Source: Thermococcus stetteri (GTDB lineage Archaea; Methanobacteriota_B; Thermococci; Thermococcales; Thermococcaceae). Taken from it: 64,000 nucleotides of DNA. Shown here piece by piece: positions 6,288-19,477 of this stretch (position 1 is the stretch's first letter; every line of letters starts with the position of its first letter). The translations under genes were made by a program, and so were the position numbers. Under the pieces are notes generated by a model. It worked only from the letters and a program-made list of their open reading frames with translations, ran no database searches and had not been told where the DNA came from. The stretch spans positions 682,001-746,000 of the forward strand of contig NZ_JAGGKB010000001.1 in the NCBI RefSeq assembly GCF_017873335.1. Direction: 5' to 3'.

Positions 6288-7388
<1,101 letters not shown>

Positions 7389-7513
7389 TTAGGGTTGAGA
7401 TACACATTTAAAAACCCCTCGGAACGTTTTTAGCCTTCAACATGTTAGGATGCAACATAAACTCTGCGATGTACGGAGATTCTCTTTATTCTGGCTCTTA
7501 GTGGCCTTTATTT

Positions 7514-7531
7514 AACATTTAACTAAATGTT
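7514..7531. promoter_or_regulatory. Inverted repeat upstream of the M48 pseudogene
   Basis: AACATTTA and TAAATGTT form perfect 8-base inverted arms around AC. Two related GTTTAAA(A)TAACG copies follow at 7543-7555 and 7562-7573. This AT-rich 200-base gap is the likely promoter and operator area of the broken protease gene. No gene is seen in it. Confidence 0.35.
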
Positions 7532-7596
7532 TGGAACCAGCCGTTTAAAATAACGTTAAAAGTTTAAATAACGAAGCATATTGGGTGGTGAATAGT

Positions 7597-8755
7597 ATGC
7601 ACACCCTTGCATTCCCGCGTATACTCCTGATTCTCGCCCTTCCGCCCTTAGCGATGAGGCACTACGCTGAAAAAATCCTGAAGGAAGAAATTCCAGACGA
7701 GGAGAAGCTTTACAAGGCGGCCAAGATAATGGTGGCCTGCATCTTTGCAGAGGTGGTTGGCTATTTACTGCCAACTCTTTTTCTTGGAATCGCCGATGCG
7801 GTCTCGAAGTTTGTGGGCGATAGAATAGGCAACGTGTACCTTGGAGCGTTAGTTTTTACCGCAAATTAATTGGCCCGCTGTTGGTCTCAATCGTTCTCAC
7901 GGTGCTCGCCGCCTCGAAGGTCGAGGTGAAGGTCAAGAAAATTGAGATTAAAACCTCTAAAGTTCTAAAAGATGTTCTCAAACTTATCGTCCTCATGATT
8001 CTGCCCGGTCTTATATGGTTCGCCATATGGGCCGTCCTACCGGATAGTGTGAAGGGCAACTTCCCCTTATGGGATGTATATTCGCCGTTTACATACTTGC
8101 GTTTTTTGCACTCGCCCCCTACTGGATGAGACTCTTCAGCAAATCCCGTCCTCTTGAGGAACCGATGAGGAGTGAGATTCTAAAGTTCTGCGAAGATCTT
8201 GGTGTTAAGGTCAAGGACGTCAAGGTAACTGGAAAAAGGAGTACAAGGTCGCAAACGCGGGAGTTACTGGTATACCCCCTGGGCGAGATACATTTTCATA
8301 ACGGAGTACATGCTCGAAACTTTTGAGCCTGAAGAGATAAAGGCAGTCATTGCTCACGAGGTTGGCCACATCAAGGGAAAGCACCTCTGGATAAACGCCG
8401 GGGTGGCAATAAGCTGGTTCGCCTTCTGGGGAGGACTTGTCTTCCTTCTCTACAGGCTGTTTAAACATCCCTCTCCTGCCCTTGTCTCCTCAATGTTCCT
8501 CTTTTCATACTTCTTTTACACGATGTTTATCCAGGGAAAGGTGTCCATGAGAAACGAGTTCAAGGCGGACGAATTCGCCGCAAAGATCGTGGGGAAGGAA
8601 GTCATGATAAGAACCCTTGAAAAGCTGGGCAGAACAAACCTCGCGCCAAGGAGGATGGGAAAGACTTGGAAGTACCTTTTCATGACATGTCATCCATTGA
8701 GGAGAGAGTGAACCATCTCAAGGAGATGAAATGGCTTAGTCCAGAACCTTTTTAA
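7597..8755 (+). pseudogene. Broken M48 family (HtpX-like) metalloprotease
   Basis: Four frame-switching pieces add up to one M48 membrane protease. They are an N-terminal membrane part (7597-7869), a second membrane part (7881 to about 8066), a linker (8069 to about 8290) and the catalytic part with HEVGH (8310 to about 8690). The conserved end IEERVNHLKEM is in yet another frame, ending at TAA 8755. Five shifts are needed, near 7855, 8062, 8233, 8285 and 8690. Several are in short homopolymers, but the one near 8285 looks like two extra bases. GGTGA precedes ATG 7597. Intact relatives act in membrane protein quality control. Confidence 0.85.
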
Positions 8756-9563: not shown

Positions 9564-11478
9564 GCGCGAGAGGGAAAAGGCGGTAGTGGTTTTCCTGATC
9601 TTCGCCTTTCTCAGCTTAGGCATCAACTTTACTCTCGGCGGAATCGGGAGTTTCATGGAGACTATAGATGAGTTCTCCCACATCGGCAACGTTGAGCTCG
9701 TCGTCCAGGGGGTTGGCGTTGAGAACCTCACGCGCTTCGGCGAGGTCGTGAACTATCTATACTTCAACGAAGGAAAGGTGAAGCTTGGCGGAAAGGAGTA
9801 CTCGGCCTTAATCGGCTACGGGCGCTTTGACGTTCCCAAGGCCAAAAGCACGCCCGATGGTGCCTATGTCCTGGCCTTCCCCGAAGCCAGGCGGGGCGAT
9901 AAAATCGAGGTCAACGGGAAAACTTACACCGTCCTCGGCTCCTACTACTACCTGATGGGCAAACCGATAGTCCTGACGATGGAGAGGGGTGAGAACCTCT
10001 ACGTCTTCATGAGGTGCAACGACGCGAAGGCTCTGGCCGAATTCCTGATGATCCACGCGAGGGTTCGTTACTTCATGGTCTATGAGAAGGGCCACACACC
10101 CTACATGGATGAACTGGGGAACGTGAGGAACTTCGTCATGAGCTTCTTCTACCTCATCCTTGGAACTGCGCTCCTCGTCAAGGTTCTCGTGACAATGGCC
10201 CATATAAGAGGGAGCACAAGGGAAGTTGGTGTCCTCAAGGCCCTTGGTCTTCCAGATTCCTTTATATTCGCGCTCTTCGTTGCCGATTACTTAATCGTAG
10301 CCATCCTCGGCTACGCCACTGGAATCGTTCCCGGAATCCTCCTAGGAAGCCGTTCGAGCCTCTTCGGTGTCTCCCTCCCGCTGAGGCCGAACTACACCTA
10401 CCCCATCAAGTTCGACGTTCTAATAGTTTTGGCGATAGTCCTGATGGTCTCTCTTCCATACCTCTACGTCTCGCGGATTAAGACCATCGAGGCCCTGCGC
10501 TTCGTCCCCAAGAGGTCATCACTCCTAAAGTTCCTTGCCGTCTTCTTCGTCGCCTTCTTAGCGTCAAGCTCGGCTTACTTTGCCCTGGTAGGTGTGGAGA
10601 AGCTCGCCAACTTCAACGCGCCCTTCAACGTCTGGGCCATCGGCAGTCCGGAGGAGATAGCGAAGCTCCCGGGCGAGAAGGTCGGATATCTGAGCGGTCA
10701 GAGCGTTAATGGAATAACAACCGAGATTTACTTCTTCAACCGGACGAGCATATTTGGGAAAACCCTAATTAAAGGAAGGTGGTTCACAGGGCAGAACGAG
10801 GCAGTCATCGAGGTTGGCCTCGCGAGGAAGCTCCACGTCAATGTTGGCGACACCATCAGGGTGACCCTCCTCGGCGTTGAGAGAACCTACCGCGTGGTGG
10901 GGATCAGTGATGCTTTCTTCTACAACTATCGCGCCCTCTTCCTTCCAATGGAGAACTTTCTTGAGCCGACGATGGACTTTATGAAGGTAGAAAATCCAGA
11001 GGGAGTCAAGGAGAAGCTCGAAGCCCAGGGGCTAAAGGTATACACGCTCGATGACCTGAGAAGAAACATCGAGCAGAACCTTGTGCTATTCAAAACGCCC
11101 GTTTACACAGTTATGCTGGTTACATTTCTCGTCAGTGTCTTCGCCATCTTCACGCTGATCTACCTTGAGGTTGAGGGCAACGAGAAGGTTTACGCCACGC
11201 TTAAGGCAGTAGGAATTCCGGATTCGTACGTGGAGCGGGAGTTCCTGACAAAAGTTGTCACCTCTGCGGTGATTGGCTCGTTCCTTGCCATTCCACCGGC
11301 GGTGAGGGTGGGCTACTACATAGGCAGCATAATCCTGCCCGTCAACCTCTCGCTCGGCGACTCCCTTCGGATCCTCCCGCCCCTGCCGGTTCTATACGTT
11401 GCCTACGCCCTGTTTACGGTCTTTGTTGTGAGGCGAGTAATGGGGAAGCTGGACGTTGTCAAAGCTTTAAGGGCCTAA
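9532..11478 (+). CDS. FtsX-like ABC transporter permease
   Basis: About 648 residues. A transmembrane segment follows a short basic N-terminus (FLIFAFLSLGINFTL), then comes an extracytoplasmic domain and a first FtsX unit with three helices (about 205-325). A second membrane segment and outside domain lead to a second three-helix FtsX unit at the C-terminus. This eight-TM MacB/FtsX-duplication layout matches its ATPase partner. ATG 9532 is preferred over GTG 9523, because GGTGAG ends about five bases upstream. It likely handles lipoproteins, peptides or lipids; the cargo cannot be read. Confidence 0.88.
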   Translation: MPLRTALAKLRREREKAVVVFLIFAFLSLGINFTLGGIGSFMETIDEFSHIGNVELVVQGVGVENLTRFGEVVNYLYFNEGKVKLGGKEYSALIGYGRFDVPKAKSTPDGAYVLAFPEARRGDKIEVNGKTYTVLGSYYYLMGKPIVLTMERGENLYVFMRCNDAKALAEFLMIHARVRYFMVYEKGHTPYMDELGNVRNFVMSFFYLILGTALLVKVLVTMAHIRGSTREVGVLKALGLPDSFIFALFVADYLIVAILGYATGIVPGILLGSRSSLFGVSLPLRPNYTYPIKFDVLIVLAIVLMVSLPYLYVSRIKTIEALRFVPKRSSLLKFLAVFFVAFLASSSAYFALVGVEKLANFNAPFNVWAIGSPEEIAKLPGEKVGYLSGQSVNGITTEIYFFNRTSIFGKTLIKGRWFTGQNEAVIEVGLARKLHVNVGDTIRVTLLGVERTYRVVGISDAFFYNYRALFLPMENFLEPTMDFMKVENPEGVKEKLEAQGLKVYTLDDLRRNIEQNLVLFKTPVYTVMLVTFLVSVFAIFTLIYLEVEGNEKVYATLKAVGIPDSYVEREFLTKVVTSAVIGSFLAIPPAVRVGYYIGSIILPVNLSLGDSLRILPPLPVLYVAYALFTVFVVRRVMGKLDVVKALRA

Positions 11479-12837: not shown

Positions 12838-12919
12838 CTCCGCCACCGAAACATAAATAAGGGTGGAGGATATTAAAATTGTTTAGTAGTTGTAACTCAA
12901 ATAGTGGGTGGTGTCGCTC

Positions 12920-14385
12920 ATGGCTGAAGACATTGAGGCCAAAATTCGTCGTTTGAGGGAACTGGGGAAGGTTACGTCTGGATCGGAGCCATCCGTCCCC
13001 GAGGCTCCGAAGCCAGCCCCGTCCCCGAAAAAACCTCCTCGTAGACCCAGATCTCTTAGTAGTATCCGCCAGAGAGAGAGAGGAGGAAGAGAATTCTTGT
13101 TGGTGCTGCCGTTTTGATAATTGTGATCCTATTGGTTTCTGTGGGGGTTTATGCGTATATCCAAAGTGCAAAGGAGAAAGAGCTCCGAAATGCCAAGGCG
13201 GCCAAACTATCGGAGTTGAATAACCTCCTGACGAGTTATAATTTCTCCGATACGGAGTGCCGCGGAAAAGCCATACCCTATCTGGTTGAGGCTAAGAACA
13301 AGATTGAGGCCGCCACAACTGTTCAGGAGGTCAACTCTGTTAATGTTAAGATGTACTTTGACCGTGCTGTGAGTGCTTATCAGAACTGTGTGAAAGAGAA
13401 AGAGCAGCTTGCTTATGAGGCGGAGCTGAATCAGACAAAGCTTCAGAAGATACAGGACATCGAGATTTCATTCCAGCCACTCCTCTCTCTGAACCTCCCA
13501 GATTCACTTAAATCCAAGGTCGTAGCTACTATGAAGAGCCTCGAAGAGAAAGTCCAGAATGCCAAAACAATTGAGGAAGTCCAGGGTATAAACGTTGAGC
13601 CTTACCTCTTGTCCCTCTGGAGGGAGTACTACTTCTGGAAGATCGACAACGTACCCGGCAATGAAGTCGTTCTCCAGAAAGGAGAGGTTAAGCAGCTAGT
13701 GTCCAAGGACGAGGCGAAAATGCTAGTTGAGGGCATTTCCAACTATACAGAGCTCCTCCAGTACAGGGTGTCCAAAGTTGAGTACGTTGAGATAGCTTTG
13801 ACTCTCCCGAGGGAGCAGATAGCCGGAGGATTCCTCCAGCCTGGGGATAGGATATCCATCTTCGTAACAAACAGCACAAATAGGAATATCCGCACCTACC
13901 GTGAAGTTGTCGATATGGCCTACGTTGAGTTTGTACTCCTCCCCGTTGATGCCGGTAATATCAACGCCAGGGAGTCCCAGTCGGAGACCAGCTCAACTGG
14001 TTCGTCCTCGTCAGTGACGTATACTGAGGGTCATTCGTTCTCCTATGACCTCGGTGGTGGTGCACCCTTCTCGAACAGCACCTCAGCTTCGGATACCTAC
14101 TCCAACTCTCAGTCAGCCACCCAGACTTCGAGTGCGGGTTATACCTACAGAGTGGATCTTGCGGAAATACTCAAGGCAATAGCCGCTGGCAAGATTCAGG
14201 CCAGCGACGAAGTAAAGGCCCAGCTTGAGAGCTACGGATGGAAGCTCGTTACACTGGAACAGTCTTCCAACATGCTTGTCTTAAGCCCCAACACTAAGTT
14301 CCTCATAATCATAAGAGTGCCCTCAGTCTTTGTTCCGGACATACTCCAGAACCCAACCGGTGTCTACATCGCAAAGATAAGTTAG
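12920..14385 (+). pseudogene. CpaB/DUF515-like anchored protein, frameshifted at an AG repeat
   Basis: A 46-residue cytoplasmic tail (MAEDIEAKIRRLRELGK, then proline/lysine-rich) runs into a stop at 13117. The next frame has the rest: a TM helix (ILVGAAVLIIVILLV), a helical region and an outside domain. The switch lies at (AG)6, 13071-13082. Removing one AG unit restores a continuous protein of about 488 residues through QRERRKRILVGAAV. The outside part holds LPREQIAGGFLQPGDRISIF, like the SAF/CpaB (RcpC) pilus assembly domain and the archaeal DUF515 group. A serine-rich stretch sits near the end. GGGTGGTG precedes ATG 12920. It heads the Tad-like operon. The break could be phase variation, mutation or a sequencing error. 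Confidence 0.75.
13071..13082 (+). repeat. (AG)6 dinucleotide repeat at a frameshift
   Basis: Six tandem AG units followed by GAGGAAG. The reading frame changes here, and loss of exactly one two-base unit would repair it. Confidence 0.8.
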
Positions 14386-14397
14386 GGGTGAGGACGT

Positions 14398-15411
14398 ATG
14401 AAAAAGATTTTTCCCTTTATTTTTGGTTTTCTACTGCTAACTCTCCCGATTTCAGGTGCTACAACCTATAATTTGCCGGGATCGCTTCCTGATGGAAGGA
14501 CTTACAATAACATTGGGGTTATGGGCGAGTTGTTCATAGATTTGAACGTTACACTCGTAAACACTGCGAGTTACCCGAAATTTGTGGTTGTTAATCCAAG
14601 GTACGATTTTACCGTTTATCGCGGGGATAACTCAGAATTTTTGAAAAACTCTAGGGTGAGCGGAGAGGGTATCGCTGGTTTTATTTCTAGAGTTACCCTT
14701 AATGAGACGACGAATGAGTTTGTGGGATTCTGGATAATGCCATATGAGACTGTAGTAGTTAATCTCAAGATAACATCAAATGCCTCGTATAATCTGGAGC
14801 TTTCGGATTATACTGGTCCGTGTGGGGACATTGGAAGAATTAAAAAGGTTGACTATGAGAATGGGAGTATTTCATTTCTGAAAATAAATGTGGAGGATCA
14901 GACCGTGTTGCCAATAGTATGCGGTGAGATTTATCCAAAACTTCTCAACAGCCCGAGGATATTCACAATAAGGAACATGTTCCCATTTATAGGAGGCTCT
15001 ATCCGGGTCTTAAAGTACGATGCCAAGGTGACCCTCAAACTTACAAACGTCCCCAACTATTTCAACACGGACAAGTTTGGATGGACTTTTGTTACAGTAG
15101 CCCAGCCGGTCATTTTCCTCGATGGAGAGGTCACAAGGTACTCCCCCAATTACACCATGATGTACAGTGAATATCTTAAATACATCCAGGACTATCGGGC
15201 AATCAAACAAACTGTCCACACTGCTAAGGGTCCAAACCCATTGGCGTCTTCGGGCAATCTCTTCAAACTCACAAATAAGCTTATTTCGGGAACTCCGCTT
15301 AAACCATCCCCGATGGTTCACAACTCAGAAATTCCAAAGCTGGACTTCCCAGTTTGGATTGTACTATTCAGAGATAGTGTTGAAATTTCATATAGTGTTG
15401 TGTCCAAATAA
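14398..15411 (+). CDS. Secreted protein of the Tad-like locus, function unknown
   Basis: 337 residues. A clear signal peptide (KKIFPFIFGFLLLTLPISGA) precedes a beta-rich outside domain with several N-glycosylation sequons. No family is recognised. After cleavage it begins ATTYNLPGS, like the AAVYNIPID start of the secreted protein at 51531-53102, so the two may be distant relatives. GGGGTGAGG precedes ATG 14398. It sits 12 bases after the CpaB-like gene and just before the ATPase. Base composition is more AT-rich than the flanking genes. Confidence 0.75.
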   Translation: MKKIFPFIFGFLLLTLPISGATTYNLPGSLPDGRTYNNIGVMGELFIDLNVTLVNTASYPKFVVVNPRYDFTVYRGDNSEFLKNSRVSGEGIAGFISRVTLNETTNEFVGFWIMPYETVVVNLKITSNASYNLELSDYTGPCGDIGRIKKVDYENGSISFLKINVEDQTVLPIVCGEIYPKLLNSPRIFTIRNMFPFIGGSIRVLKYDAKVTLKLTNVPNYFNTDKFGWTFVTVAQPVIFLDGEVTRYSPNYTMMYSEYLKYIQDYRAIKQTVHTAKGPNPLASSGNLFKLTNKLISGTPLKPSPMVHNSEIPKLDFPVWIVLFRDSVEISYSVVSK

Positions 15412-15440: not shown

Positions 15441-17492
15441 GTGGTGTTGGATGAGAAAAAGAAGAAGGAGTCCCTTTCGTGGATAGATGAGATACTCTCT
15501 GGTGAGGAGGATCCCCTTGAAAAGATTTTGAAGAAAAAGGGTAGTGGTAAGAAGGAGCCTGAAAACATCCCAATTCCAACTTTCGGTTCCAGCAGTCTTG
15601 AAGATATCCTGGCTGGAGGCTCTAAGTCCAGTCCGGAACAGCCCGAACCTAAAGAGAAAAAGCCTGAAGCGGTTCCGTCTACCGGAGCCGATTTGCTCGC
15701 CCAGCTACTGGGTGAAGAAGAAAGTAAGAAGGAGAGTGGGGCAAAGGCACCCGCTCCAGAGCAGGAAAAAAGAGAAGTTGCCTCTCATCCGGCGGCCCAA
15801 AAACCCTCAGTGGAAGCCGTTCCGACAGGGTCCACTACTGGGGTGGATCTACTCACTGAAATATTGGGTGGCTCTGAGGTTTCTACCCGTGAGCCACTTG
15901 GAGGGCCATCTTCGACCCAGAAAACTCGGGGGGTTAGCCCAGAAAAGCTCTTTGGAACTCCAGCAGTTGAGGAGTCCCCATCTTACGCTGGAAGGGCTGA
16001 GGTCCTGGATGTATACGGCAACGTTCGTATCATCAAAGTAAAAGGAGAGCCCGTTCCCATTTATGAGCTACGCTTTCCCAAGCTATCAAAGGAAGAAGAG
16101 CAACTTTTTAGGCGTATTAAGGATAGGGCGATAACTGAGATTCAGCTTGATCCTACGGCTATCCCCAACCCAGAAGAGCGTAGAAAGTTCTTCATAATGG
16201 CAGTTAAGAAGATGCTGAAAGAGGAGGCACCCCACTACTCTGAAGGGCGCATTGAAGTCCTCGCGGAGATGATAGTACAACAGATGGTCGGCTACGGCAA
16301 GCTCGACTCGCTTGTCCGCGATGACAACCTTGAGGAAATTATGGTCATCGGAACCAACCGCCCAGTTTACGTGTGGCACAGACGCTTCAACATGTGCAAG
16401 ACCAACATTGTTTTTGACAATGAGAAGGAAATCCTGAACATAATAGAGCGTATAGCCAGGGAAGTAGGAAGGAGGATAGACCAGCAGAGCCCATTGCTGG
16501 ATGCTCGTCTACCGGATGGGAGCCGTGTGAATGCAACAATACCCCCGATCAGCCTCGATGGTCCGACAATAACTATCCGTAAGTTCAAGAAGGATCCCCT
16601 TACGATAATAGACCTAATAAAGTACGGTACTATGAGTTCAGAGGTTGCGGCATTCCTCTGGCTTCTGGTTGATGGCCTTGGCGTAAAGCCTGCCAACATA
16701 CTCGTTTCAGGAGGTACGGGTTCGGGAAAAACTACAACACTGAACTCGATTGCGATGTTTATCCCTCCAAGCGAGCGTGTGATCTCTATCGAGGACACTG
16801 CTGAGCTCCAGCTTCCTGTTGAGCACTGGGTCAGGCTTGAAACAAGGCCACCCAACCTTGAGGGTAAGGGAGAAGTTACGATGGACGACTTAGTTAGGAA
16901 CACCCTCCGTATGCGTCCGGACAGGATCATCGTCGGTGAGGTGCGTGGTCCCGAGGCCAGAACGATGTTTACCGCAATGAACACAGGTCACGATGGATGT
17001 ATGGGTACGCTTCACGCGAACAGTGCTCGTGAGACTATAGTGAGGTTGGAAAGCCCTCCGATGAACGTTCCGAGGATCATGATCCCTGCCCTCGATATAA
17101 TCCTCATACAGGTTCGCTTCCACAGCAGGAAGAAAGGCACCCTGAGACGTGTTACTGAGGTCGCTGAAGTTTCGGGTCTCGAGGGTGAGAGTATCCAGCT
17201 AAACACCCTGTACAAATACGACCCGGCCAAGGATGAGCTTGTTTCCACTGGGGTCCCAAGCAGGACGATTAACATCCTCGCCCAGCACACGGGTATGAGC
17301 GTTAAAGAGATTATGCTGGAGATCGAGAAGAGAAGAATTATCCTCGAGTGGATGGTCGAGAAGGGCATTAGGGGCATTGACAAAGTCGGCTACTACATAA
17401 GACAGTTCTACATAGACGAGGAGTGGCTTCTCAACAAGATATCCGCGGACAGCGATATGGAGACCAGTAAGCAGATTCAGGCCCTTATATGA
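15441..17492 (+). CDS. Type II/IV secretion ATPase (TadA/FlaI-like)
   Basis: 683 residues. The last 480 form a GspE/VirB11 ATPase: an N-domain, then Walker A GGTGSGKTT, the Asp box around ISIEDTAELQLP, Walker B RIIVGEVRGPEA and the His box TGHDGCMGTLHANS. It should drive assembly of a pilus-like fibre or secretion through the two neighbouring TadB/C proteins. The first 200 residues are disordered and rich in Pro, Glu and Lys. They hold four short repeats (WIDEILSG, SLEDILAG, ADLLAQLLG, VDLLTEILGG at about 14, 52, 83 and 125). GTG 15441 follows GGTGAG by five bases. Confidence 0.92.
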   Translation: MVLDEKKKKESLSWIDEILSGEEDPLEKILKKKGSGKKEPENIPIPTFGSSSLEDILAGGSKSSPEQPEPKEKKPEAVPSTGADLLAQLLGEEESKKESGAKAPAPEQEKREVASHPAAQKPSVEAVPTGSTTGVDLLTEILGGSEVSTREPLGGPSSTQKTRGVSPEKLFGTPAVEESPSYAGRAEVLDVYGNVRIIKVKGEPVPIYELRFPKLSKEEEQLFRRIKDRAITEIQLDPTAIPNPEERRKFFIMAVKKMLKEEAPHYSEGRIEVLAEMIVQQMVGYGKLDSLVRDDNLEEIMVIGTNRPVYVWHRRFNMCKTNIVFDNEKEILNIIERIAREVGRRIDQQSPLLDARLPDGSRVNATIPPISLDGPTITIRKFKKDPLTIIDLIKYGTMSSEVAAFLWLLVDGLGVKPANILVSGGTGSGKTTTLNSIAMFIPPSERVISIEDTAELQLPVEHWVRLETRPPNLEGKGEVTMDDLVRNTLRMRPDRIIVGEVRGPEARTMFTAMNTGHDGCMGTLHANSARETIVRLESPPMNVPRIMIPALDIILIQVRFHSRKKGTLRRVTEVAEVSGLEGESIQLNTLYKYDPAKDELVSTGVPSRTINILAQHTGMSVKEIMLEIEKRRIILEWMVEKGIRGIDKVGYYIRQFYIDEEWLLNKISADSDMETSKQIQALI

Positions 17493-17504: not shown

Positions 17505-18560
17505 ATGGGGTTCATAGAGTTTCTCGAGAGGCTCGGCGGTAAGACCCTTGAGGTTACAGAGGCCCCACTGAGGCGTATTCCTGAGGGGAAGACAATCCAA
17601 GAGAGGCTTAGGGCCCTCAAAGAAATCCAAAAGGAAATCGAGGAAGAGAAAAAACAGCTAAGTGAGATCGAAAAGATAGCCGAAGAAATTCTAGAGTGGC
17701 GCAAGGAAGAGGTTACACAGCCTTTTTCTGAGCGTCTGGCCGAAACTATGCTCAGATATTTCAAGGGGCCAATTGAGTTTCTCGCTCACTTTTTCTCTGG
17801 GTTGGATGTTGACCTGTACAGGGCTAACATATTGATGTCCCCACTAAAGTACGTGGCCTATATGCTGGGTGTTTCTCTGTTTGTTGGCATTTTTGGGGTT
17901 CTCTTGGCGTATCTCCTCTACCAGCCCCTAGTGATTTCCCTCTCGGCTGGACTCCTTGGATTCATTGGTGGGCTCTTTTACATGAGGCTCTATCCAAGGT
18001 TAGTATGGAGAAAGAGGGTTGTGGAAGTAGAAAAGGCCTTGCCTTATGTACTCAGGCACATAGCCTCCCTGCTCAGTGCGGGTGTGGGTATAGCTGAGGC
18101 CATTCTTTCTGTAGCCAAGGCCGATTACGGTCCAATATCCGAAGAATTTGAGCTTATAATAAGAGATATGAGGACAGGGTCATCTTTTGAAGAGGCCATG
18201 ACAAAGTTCGAAGAAAAAATGGCCTCGGAAAACGTGAGCAGAGTTGTTAAGCAGGTTCTTCGTGCAGTAAAGTTTGGTGGAAACTTGGCTGATGTTTTAT
18301 ACAAGCTCGCTGAGGACTTTTCATTCGAGTATCGCATGAAGCTGGTCGAGTACGTCCAGAAGGTTAATGGTGTGTCGTTTATTTACATGTTCATTACGAT
18401 AGTTATGCCGACAATGTTTGTGATAGGTATCTTGGCTGCATCGGTTATGGCAAAGACTCTGGTTTTGAACATCACTGCCATGGCAGTTATTCTGTTGCTG
18501 GCGTTCCCGATAATGTCGTTTATCATCATTAACATGATCAAAAGCGCAGAGCCGAGGTGA
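17505..18560 (+). CDS. Tad-like inner membrane platform protein (T2SSF family), first copy
   Basis: 351 residues. A charged coiled-coil-like N-terminus (about 30-65, ERLRALKEIQKEIEEEKKQL) is followed by membrane segments, a cytoplasmic T2SSF domain (EKALPYVLRHIASLLSAGVGI) and two further C-terminal membrane helices. This is the GspF/TadB/FlaJ platform architecture that contacts the ATPase. GGTGGT precedes ATG 17505. It is followed by a second T2SSF gene, matching the TadB-TadC pair of Tad systems. Confidence 0.88.
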   Translation: MGFIEFLERLGGKTLEVTEAPLRRIPEGKTIQERLRALKEIQKEIEEEKKQLSEIEKIAEEILEWRKEEVTQPFSERLAETMLRYFKGPIEFLAHFFSGLDVDLYRANILMSPLKYVAYMLGVSLFVGIFGVLLAYLLYQPLVISLSAGLLGFIGGLFYMRLYPRLVWRKRVVEVEKALPYVLRHIASLLSAGVGIAEAILSVAKADYGPISEEFELIIRDMRTGSSFEEAMTKFEEKMASENVSRVVKQVLRAVKFGGNLADVLYKLAEDFSFEYRMKLVEYVQKVNGVSFIYMFITIVMPTMFVIGILAASVMAKTLVLNITAMAVILLLAFPIMSFIIINMIKSAEPR

Positions 18561-18565
18561 GGTGT

Positions 18566-19477
18566 ATGGCGAAACGTTTTCAGTTCTCTTCTATACTTGT
18601 GAAGATTGTTGAAGCCATCATTCCTAAGAGATACCTTAAGCGCTATGAACTTTACCTGTATTCTGCGGGCATAAACTTCCTAGCGGCTGAATATATTGTT
18701 ATTTCCCTCCTACTTGGCCTGATAATTGGTCTGGTAATATCCTTGTTCAGTGTCCTCTATGGTATAGTTGGATTCGTAACGGGCTTTGCGGGTTTTGCGT
18801 TTGTATACCCCTACTGGCGTATTATGAAGAAAATGGAGGACATTGAAAGGAATCTCCCTGATGCGTTTTTTTATCTTGCAAGCTCTCTGAGAGCTGGTAT
18901 CTCATTTACTGAGGCTCTGGATGAGCTGACTACCTCCAAATTTGGAGCCCTGACCGAAGAGTTCAAGAAAGTTGTTTCCGAGATAAACAAAGGGCGCTCA
19001 ACTGCGGATGCTTTGAGGGCTTTTGCTATAAGGAACAAGAGATCGCAAGTGCTCTACAGGTCAATGATGATAATCATTGAGGCCCTCGAAAGGGGTGCCC
19101 CAATGAGTGATGTTCTCGTTGCAGTTGGAAACGACGTTAGGGAGATACTTAGAATCCAGAAGGAGAGAAAGGCTTCTACAGGAATGCAGACGATGTTCTT
19201 CATAGTGACCAGCGGTTTCGTTGGACCGCTCATCTTGGGATTGGTTACTCAGGTTATGGCTTCGGTTAGTAGCCCGGATATTGGCCTAGTATTCCCGGTG
19301 TCGTCTTTAGTGCAGATTCTGATGGGATTTGTTGCGATTCAGGCAACATTATCCGGTTTTGGGATAGGGGTAATAAGAGAAGGAAAATACAAGGCGGGCT
19401 TTAGGTACGTTGGGATGCTAGTCCCCATGAGTCTTTTGATATTCAAAGTGGCAACAATAATCAAGCTAAGCTTCTGA
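18566..19477 (+). CDS. Tad-like inner membrane platform protein (T2SSF family), second copy
   Basis: About 303 residues with the T2SSF domain (IERNLPDAFFYLASSLRAGISFTEAL) between two groups of membrane helices. ATG 18566 is chosen because GAGGTGAG lies four bases upstream; an in-frame GTG at 18557 overlaps the previous gene. It is the last gene of the locus and overlaps the opposite-strand FKBP gene by 12 bases. It should pair with the first copy as the membrane platform. Confidence 0.87.
   Translation: MAKRFQFSSILVKIVEAIIPKRYLKRYELYLYSAGINFLAAEYIVISLLLGLIIGLVISLFSVLYGIVGFVTGFAGFAFVYPYWRIMKKMEDIERNLPDAFFYLASSLRAGISFTEALDELTTSKFGALTEEFKKVVSEINKGRSTADALRAFAIRNKRSQVLYRSMMIIIEALERGAPMSDVLVAVGNDVREILRIQKERKASTGMQTMFFIVTSGFVGPLILGLVTQVMASVSSPDIGLVFPVSSLVQILMGFVAIQATLSGFGIGVIREGKYKAGFRYVGMLVPMSLLIFKVATIIKLSF

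Follow-up and report, generated by a model that had tools for sequence, protein, structure and literature searches.

An (AG)6 tract at a frame break in the DUF515 gene that heads a pilus-type locus of Thermococcus stetteri

The DUF515 gene and the pilus-type locus

The window analysed here is a stretch of 64,000 nucleotides from Thermococcus stetteri (contig NZ_JAGGKB010000001.1, positions 682,001 to 746,000), and coordinates given without a further label are counted from its first letter and lie on the forward strand. At 12920–14385 the window carries a gene of the DUF515 family (PF04415), which is split between two overlapping frames. The first frame runs from an ATG at 12920 to a TGA at 13115–13117 (12920–13117, with an alternative start GTG at 12908) and forms a stub of 65 codons that encodes the conserved N-terminus of DUF515, MAEDIEAKIRRLRELGKVT, which hardly varies among homologues, before it ends on the out-of-frame stop; the second frame, which has no stop between 13063 and a TAG at 14383–14385 (13063–14385), encodes the membrane helix and the extracytoplasmic body. 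The second frame scores 419.6 bits against a DUF515 cut-off of 29 (E 1.5e-125) with the first 38 profile positions missing, and the score rises to 445.8 bits when stops are read through. When the profile was run across the genome, the site of the frame break was covered only when stops were read through, and DUF515 was found as a single copy, so that no spare gene is available.

The DUF515 gene is followed on the same strand by a gene for a 337-aa secreted or membrane protein (14398–15411), which has no Pfam or NCBIfam match and whose position is conserved in relatives, by a type II/IV secretion ATPase (T2SSE, 15441–17492, Pfam E 7.3e-53), and by two platform membrane proteins of the T2SSF family (17505–18560, E 1.9e-23; 18557–19477, E 1.1e-17). 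This order is collinear in relatives, the genes 5' of DUF515 point in the opposite direction, and the arrangement of a secretion ATPase and two T2SSF genes in one run is that of an archaeal type IV pilus-type locus; the description of the broken gene as the lead gene of a pilus locus in the first-pass annotation thus holds. A crude scan of the window for the class III signal peptide motif of pilins gave no match, and pilins may be encoded outside the window. At C1:187 kb, this genome (G000) also has a gene with two archaellum-like T2SSF domains. In some relatives, the ATPase of the locus carries an in-frame LAGLIDADG intein at TGHNG/CMGTIHANS (L118, about 9845–11401; also L128), and the ATPase of the window is free of it.

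When the two frames are joined, the protein contains a clear membrane helix, ILVGAAVLIIVILLVSV, with a mean hydropathy of 3.3, as had been predicted for the restored product. The accompanying proposal of a CpaB-like domain corresponds to a weak match: there is a slight likeness, and the position in the locus suggests a CpaB-like role, but the match to RcpC/CpaB (PF16976) reaches 22.7 bits against a family cut-off of 28.8 and recurs in one of 16 homologues. A structure model built from 13 aligned sequences, of moderate confidence (pLDDT 75), found RcpC (9gzr_B) at E 0.59 and a probability of 0.57. Comparison of the DUF515 profile with solved structures gave no convincing match, and a model made from a single sequence was set aside for poor quality.

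The AG tract and the frame break

The tract at 13071–13082 reads AGAGAGAGAGAG, six AG units with a C on its 5' side and a G on its 3' side, and no other (AG)6 occurs in the 2,034,780-base genome, both strands included. Removal of one AG unit joins the two frames at SIRQRER/RKRIL and gives SIRQRERRKRIL, which aligns with the orthologous SIRERERRKRIL at equal length and without gaps; an (AG)5 would therefore fit the orthologues, and one AG unit divides the broken from the open frame, as in contingency genes. Insertion of one base at any point within 13063–13114, or a −1 shift of the ribosome there, would also join the frames, but the orthologous sequence is obtained only when two bases are removed within the tract. 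The first-pass annotation was right that the (AG)6 breaks the gene and that the offset is exactly one repeat unit; its wording that the tract switches the gene off is too strong, and it is more accurate to say that the gene is off in this assembly. Since the downstream frame runs for 440 codons without a stop and keeps the invariant columns of the family, the break is recent.

The protein could in principle be made despite the break, through a −1 shift of the ribosome, slippage of the transcript on the AG run, or a restart at the TTG at 13114–13116, the first possible restart codon for the remainder, which overlaps the TGA of the stub. The TTGA overlap suits stop–restart coupling, and a transcript that lacks one AG unit would restore the frame exactly. 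However, the orthologues have one continuous frame and thus give no sign of conserved recoding, no slippery heptamer was seen in frame, and RNA folding at the site is no stronger than in shuffled sequences (z 0.46). Programmed ribosomal frameshifting is not supported, given the single-frame orthologues and the lack of stimulatory RNA structure beyond that of the shuffles. The product of a putative restart at the TTG would lack the conserved N-terminus and have a truncated helix, with the best 17-residue hydropathy falling to 2.28 from 3.33. Expression by any of these routes is therefore judged highly improbable.

DUF515 in relatives

DUF515 is present in 59 of 61 genomes of the genus and in all 49 good-quality Thermococcus genomes. 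It is broken in two of the 59, this genome and G057, at different sites: in G057 the frame is shifted by a single additional base close to the C-terminal end, outside any repeat (L136; G057 C18, about 446–462). GeneTack looks for repeats that recur at the break in five or more clustered frameshifted homologues, a sign that is supportive rather than strictly defining; among the DUF515 genes, two of 59 are frameshifted. In 29 relatives of the genus that were read in detail, the Arg/Glu-rich stretch at the AG site is kept and contains no five-unit AG run, for example GAGAGGGAGAGG. An alignment query retrieved 13 metagenome-assembled loci, 12 of which include the N-terminus, and all 12 read through the site with no five-unit AG run; a single-protein query of genome contigs, unlike the alignment query, gave no match. 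Among the viral contigs searched, no copy of the tract site was found. As neither the 29 relatives nor the 12 metagenome-assembled genomes have a five-unit AG run here, the tract is peculiar to this genome.

These comparisons bear on reversible phase variation, in which the tract would often gain and lose units, the population would contain ON cells with (AG)5 and OFF cells with (AG)6, and the sequenced consensus would be OFF. The tract does lie early in the coding sequence of a surface-system gene that is otherwise intact, and its unit is not a multiple of three. On the other hand, it is absent from all orthologues examined, six units is short, and repeats of this kind are not enriched in the genome, 464 kb of which contain no further dinucleotide run of five units or more. 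The OFF state of such a switch would be indistinguishable in sequence from a fixed null mutation or from an assembly error. From these sequences, evolved phase variation appears possible but unproven, and it is not favoured because the tract is not conserved in the orthologues; as an account of this gene, reversible switching is considered unlikely.

Assembly quality

A sequencing or assembly error would mean that the cells hold (AG)5 and an intact DUF515 gene. The gene is found throughout the rest of the genus and, apart from that of G057, is intact there. A single frameshift in a gene whose homologues are whole is how errors classically show up, and the authors of GeneTack expected such frameshifts to be sequencing errors (PMC3711429). 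A survey of frameshifts in the assembly was made by comparing 464 kb of this genome with open reading frames from 1.2 Mb of a relative (G013), which covered 255 distinct genes. Genuine breaks in this genome remain in only three of these, near 1%: in DUF515, in a CBS-domain gene that has five A instead of the expected six, and in a VapC-like gene at most 1.4 kb from the CBS-domain gene (L056, about 7076–8471; G000 C1, about 597,076–598,471). Nine of twelve candidates of the survey were discarded as shadow frames, gene junctions, an rRNA region, a distant paralogue, or a nadB break in G013 itself. The breaks in the CBS-domain and VapC-like genes may be natural decay or local sequence errors, and the former, as a frameshift in a run of A in the same assembly, speaks for error; a rate near 1% is compatible with natural mutations plus a few errors.

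The common sequencing error is one base in a homopolymer, and a gain of two bases in a dinucleotide run of 10–12 bases is atypical of common sequencing methods. This feature, the small number of broken genes, and a like change in an independent single-contig genome (G012) count against an error, which is held to be distinctly unlikely, and a real mutation is the more likely of the two.

AG and GA runs in this genome and in the genus

The chance of such a repeat was estimated with a dinucleotide Markov model trained on 464 kb of this genome. About 2.2 (AG)6 tracts are expected per genome and one is observed, so that the length of the tract alone is unremarkable; for (AG)5 the model predicts about 23 matches against three observed, two of which lie within the tract at 13071–13082, and AG runs are thus rarer than the model predicts. 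That the frame break falls on the longest AG run of the genome is unlikely to be chance. Since this is also its most slippage-prone AG run, it is this coincidence that forms the actual evidence for slippage.

AG or GA runs of 12 bases or more were sought in 61 genomes of the genus and occur at five places, one of them the tract of the window. Another is the cheA gene of G012, a complete genome in a single contig, which is split at a (GA)6 where (GA)5 is expected (L139, 1501–1512; G012 C1:540910–540921). Its pieces are a frame of 515 codons with the Hpt, P2 and dimerisation domains and a frame of 286 codons with the HATPase and CheW domains. In G016, the closest relative of G012 and 98% identical to it over the C-terminal part of cheA, the gene is one frame of 811 codons. 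The further close orthologues of full length are open as well (759–811 codons, G016 included), and all, that of G016 too, read EEREKLGKPR or near variants without a long GA run. A one-unit excess at a run of six has thus arisen independently in a motility-related gene of a second species, and this second broken motility gene can be read in favour of phase variation as well. In the T. stetteri genome, a CheA of the type searched was not found.

At the remaining three places the frame is open or apparently so. An (AG)9 in G033 (L032, 1501–1518) and an (AG)7 in G036 (L033, 1501–1514) occupy the same place in one membrane-protein family and encode in-frame Arg/Glu repeats; both being in frame, they were rejected as support for switching, and the family is a promising one in which to look for length variation between strains. 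In G004, a chemoreceptor-like gene with a (GA)6 close to its start appears to be open. Two points caution against reading too much into the cheA case. By construction, a search for long runs finds tracts that slippage has lengthened, and among 30 inspected loci with (AG)5 or longer, a break was seen only in cheA, with 28 of the 29 others inside open frames of 180 codons or more when both strands are considered. That most such runs in the genus sit in long open frames weighs against phase variation.

Proposed mechanism and its meaning

The best explanation is a real insertion of one unit by slipped-strand mispairing, from (AG)5 to (AG)6, which inactivates DUF515 at what is an accidental mutable site rather than a proven, evolved switch; a probability of about 0.58 is assigned to this reading. 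Mispairing of slipped strands would have added one 2-nt unit to an (AG)5 that codes for an Arg/Glu-rich segment ahead of the DUF515 helix, and the resulting (AG)6, probably present in the cells themselves, would shift the frame of the helix and of all of the extracytoplasmic body. The sequenced strain would then make a stub of 65 residues and presumably have no DUF515 at the membrane, and both the DUF515 protein and its function, and with them the pili, would probably be lost. The tract itself may be an accidental product of the Arg and Glu codons used in this species, and reversion would be possible in principle through the loss of one AG unit.

A profile search of the genome found NucS and no match to MutS domain III, and it has been reported that short indels are not corrected by NucS (PMC8228993). 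With NucS not correcting indels and no MutS match, such loops may escape repair. The lack in this genome of any detected repair system known to mend indels is also a point in favour of phase variation, and a broader proposal can be framed on it, namely that in Thermococcus without MutS-type repair of small loops, AG/GA slippage in pilus and chemotaxis genes such as DUF515 and the cheA of G012 is frequent and reversible and leads to phase variation of surface and motility. This proposal is doubtful; if true, surface and motility functions of hyperthermophilic archaea would be subject to phase variation through dinucleotide repeats. Switching of surface genes by repeat slippage has been studied mainly in bacteria, and a 2025 review describes archaea as a gap left to fill (PMC11868660). 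No published case of slippage in DUF515 or in Thermococcus was found in the open literature searched.

The two one-unit AG/GA slips, in a pilus gene and a chemotaxis gene of two Thermococcus species, offer concrete sites for measuring how often slippage occurs in the heat when MutS is missing, and with the parallel in cheA the DUF515 tract is worth resequencing. Even as a mere loss of function, the break matters, as the strain that was sequenced may be mutant in its pilus locus and DUF515 should not be annotated as absent from it.

Comparison with known systems

Within its own family, the protein resembles other DUF515 members (PF04415) in its full-length match after the frames are joined, its single copy, and its place as first gene of the locus; it differs in that one AG unit interrupts it ahead of the membrane helix. 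RcpC/CpaB of Tad (Flp) pili (PF16976) is comparable in that DUF515 stands beside a Tad/FlaI-like ATPase and two T2SSF genes and shows a weak likeness in sequence and fold, but DUF515 scores below the cut-off of that family and forms an archaeal family of its own.

For the tract, the closest phase-variable counterpart is oipA of Helicobacter pylori, in which changes in the number of CT units in a short dinucleotide run close to the 5' end of a surface gene toggle the frame; CT patterns down to 5–6 units occur there in both On and Off sequences (PMC10564699), which favours phase variation at a run as short as the present one. In oipA many lengths are known from many strains, whereas the DUF515 tract is known from one sequence, with the repeat absent from related species. 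An ordinary indel pseudogene, or a GeneTack "singleton" (PMC3711429), shares with the present case a break confined to one genome, intact homologues, and a site that is not conserved. Unlike it, the break in DUF515 falls exactly on the longest AG run of the genome, can be reverted in one step, and has a counterpart of the same kind in the cheA of another species.
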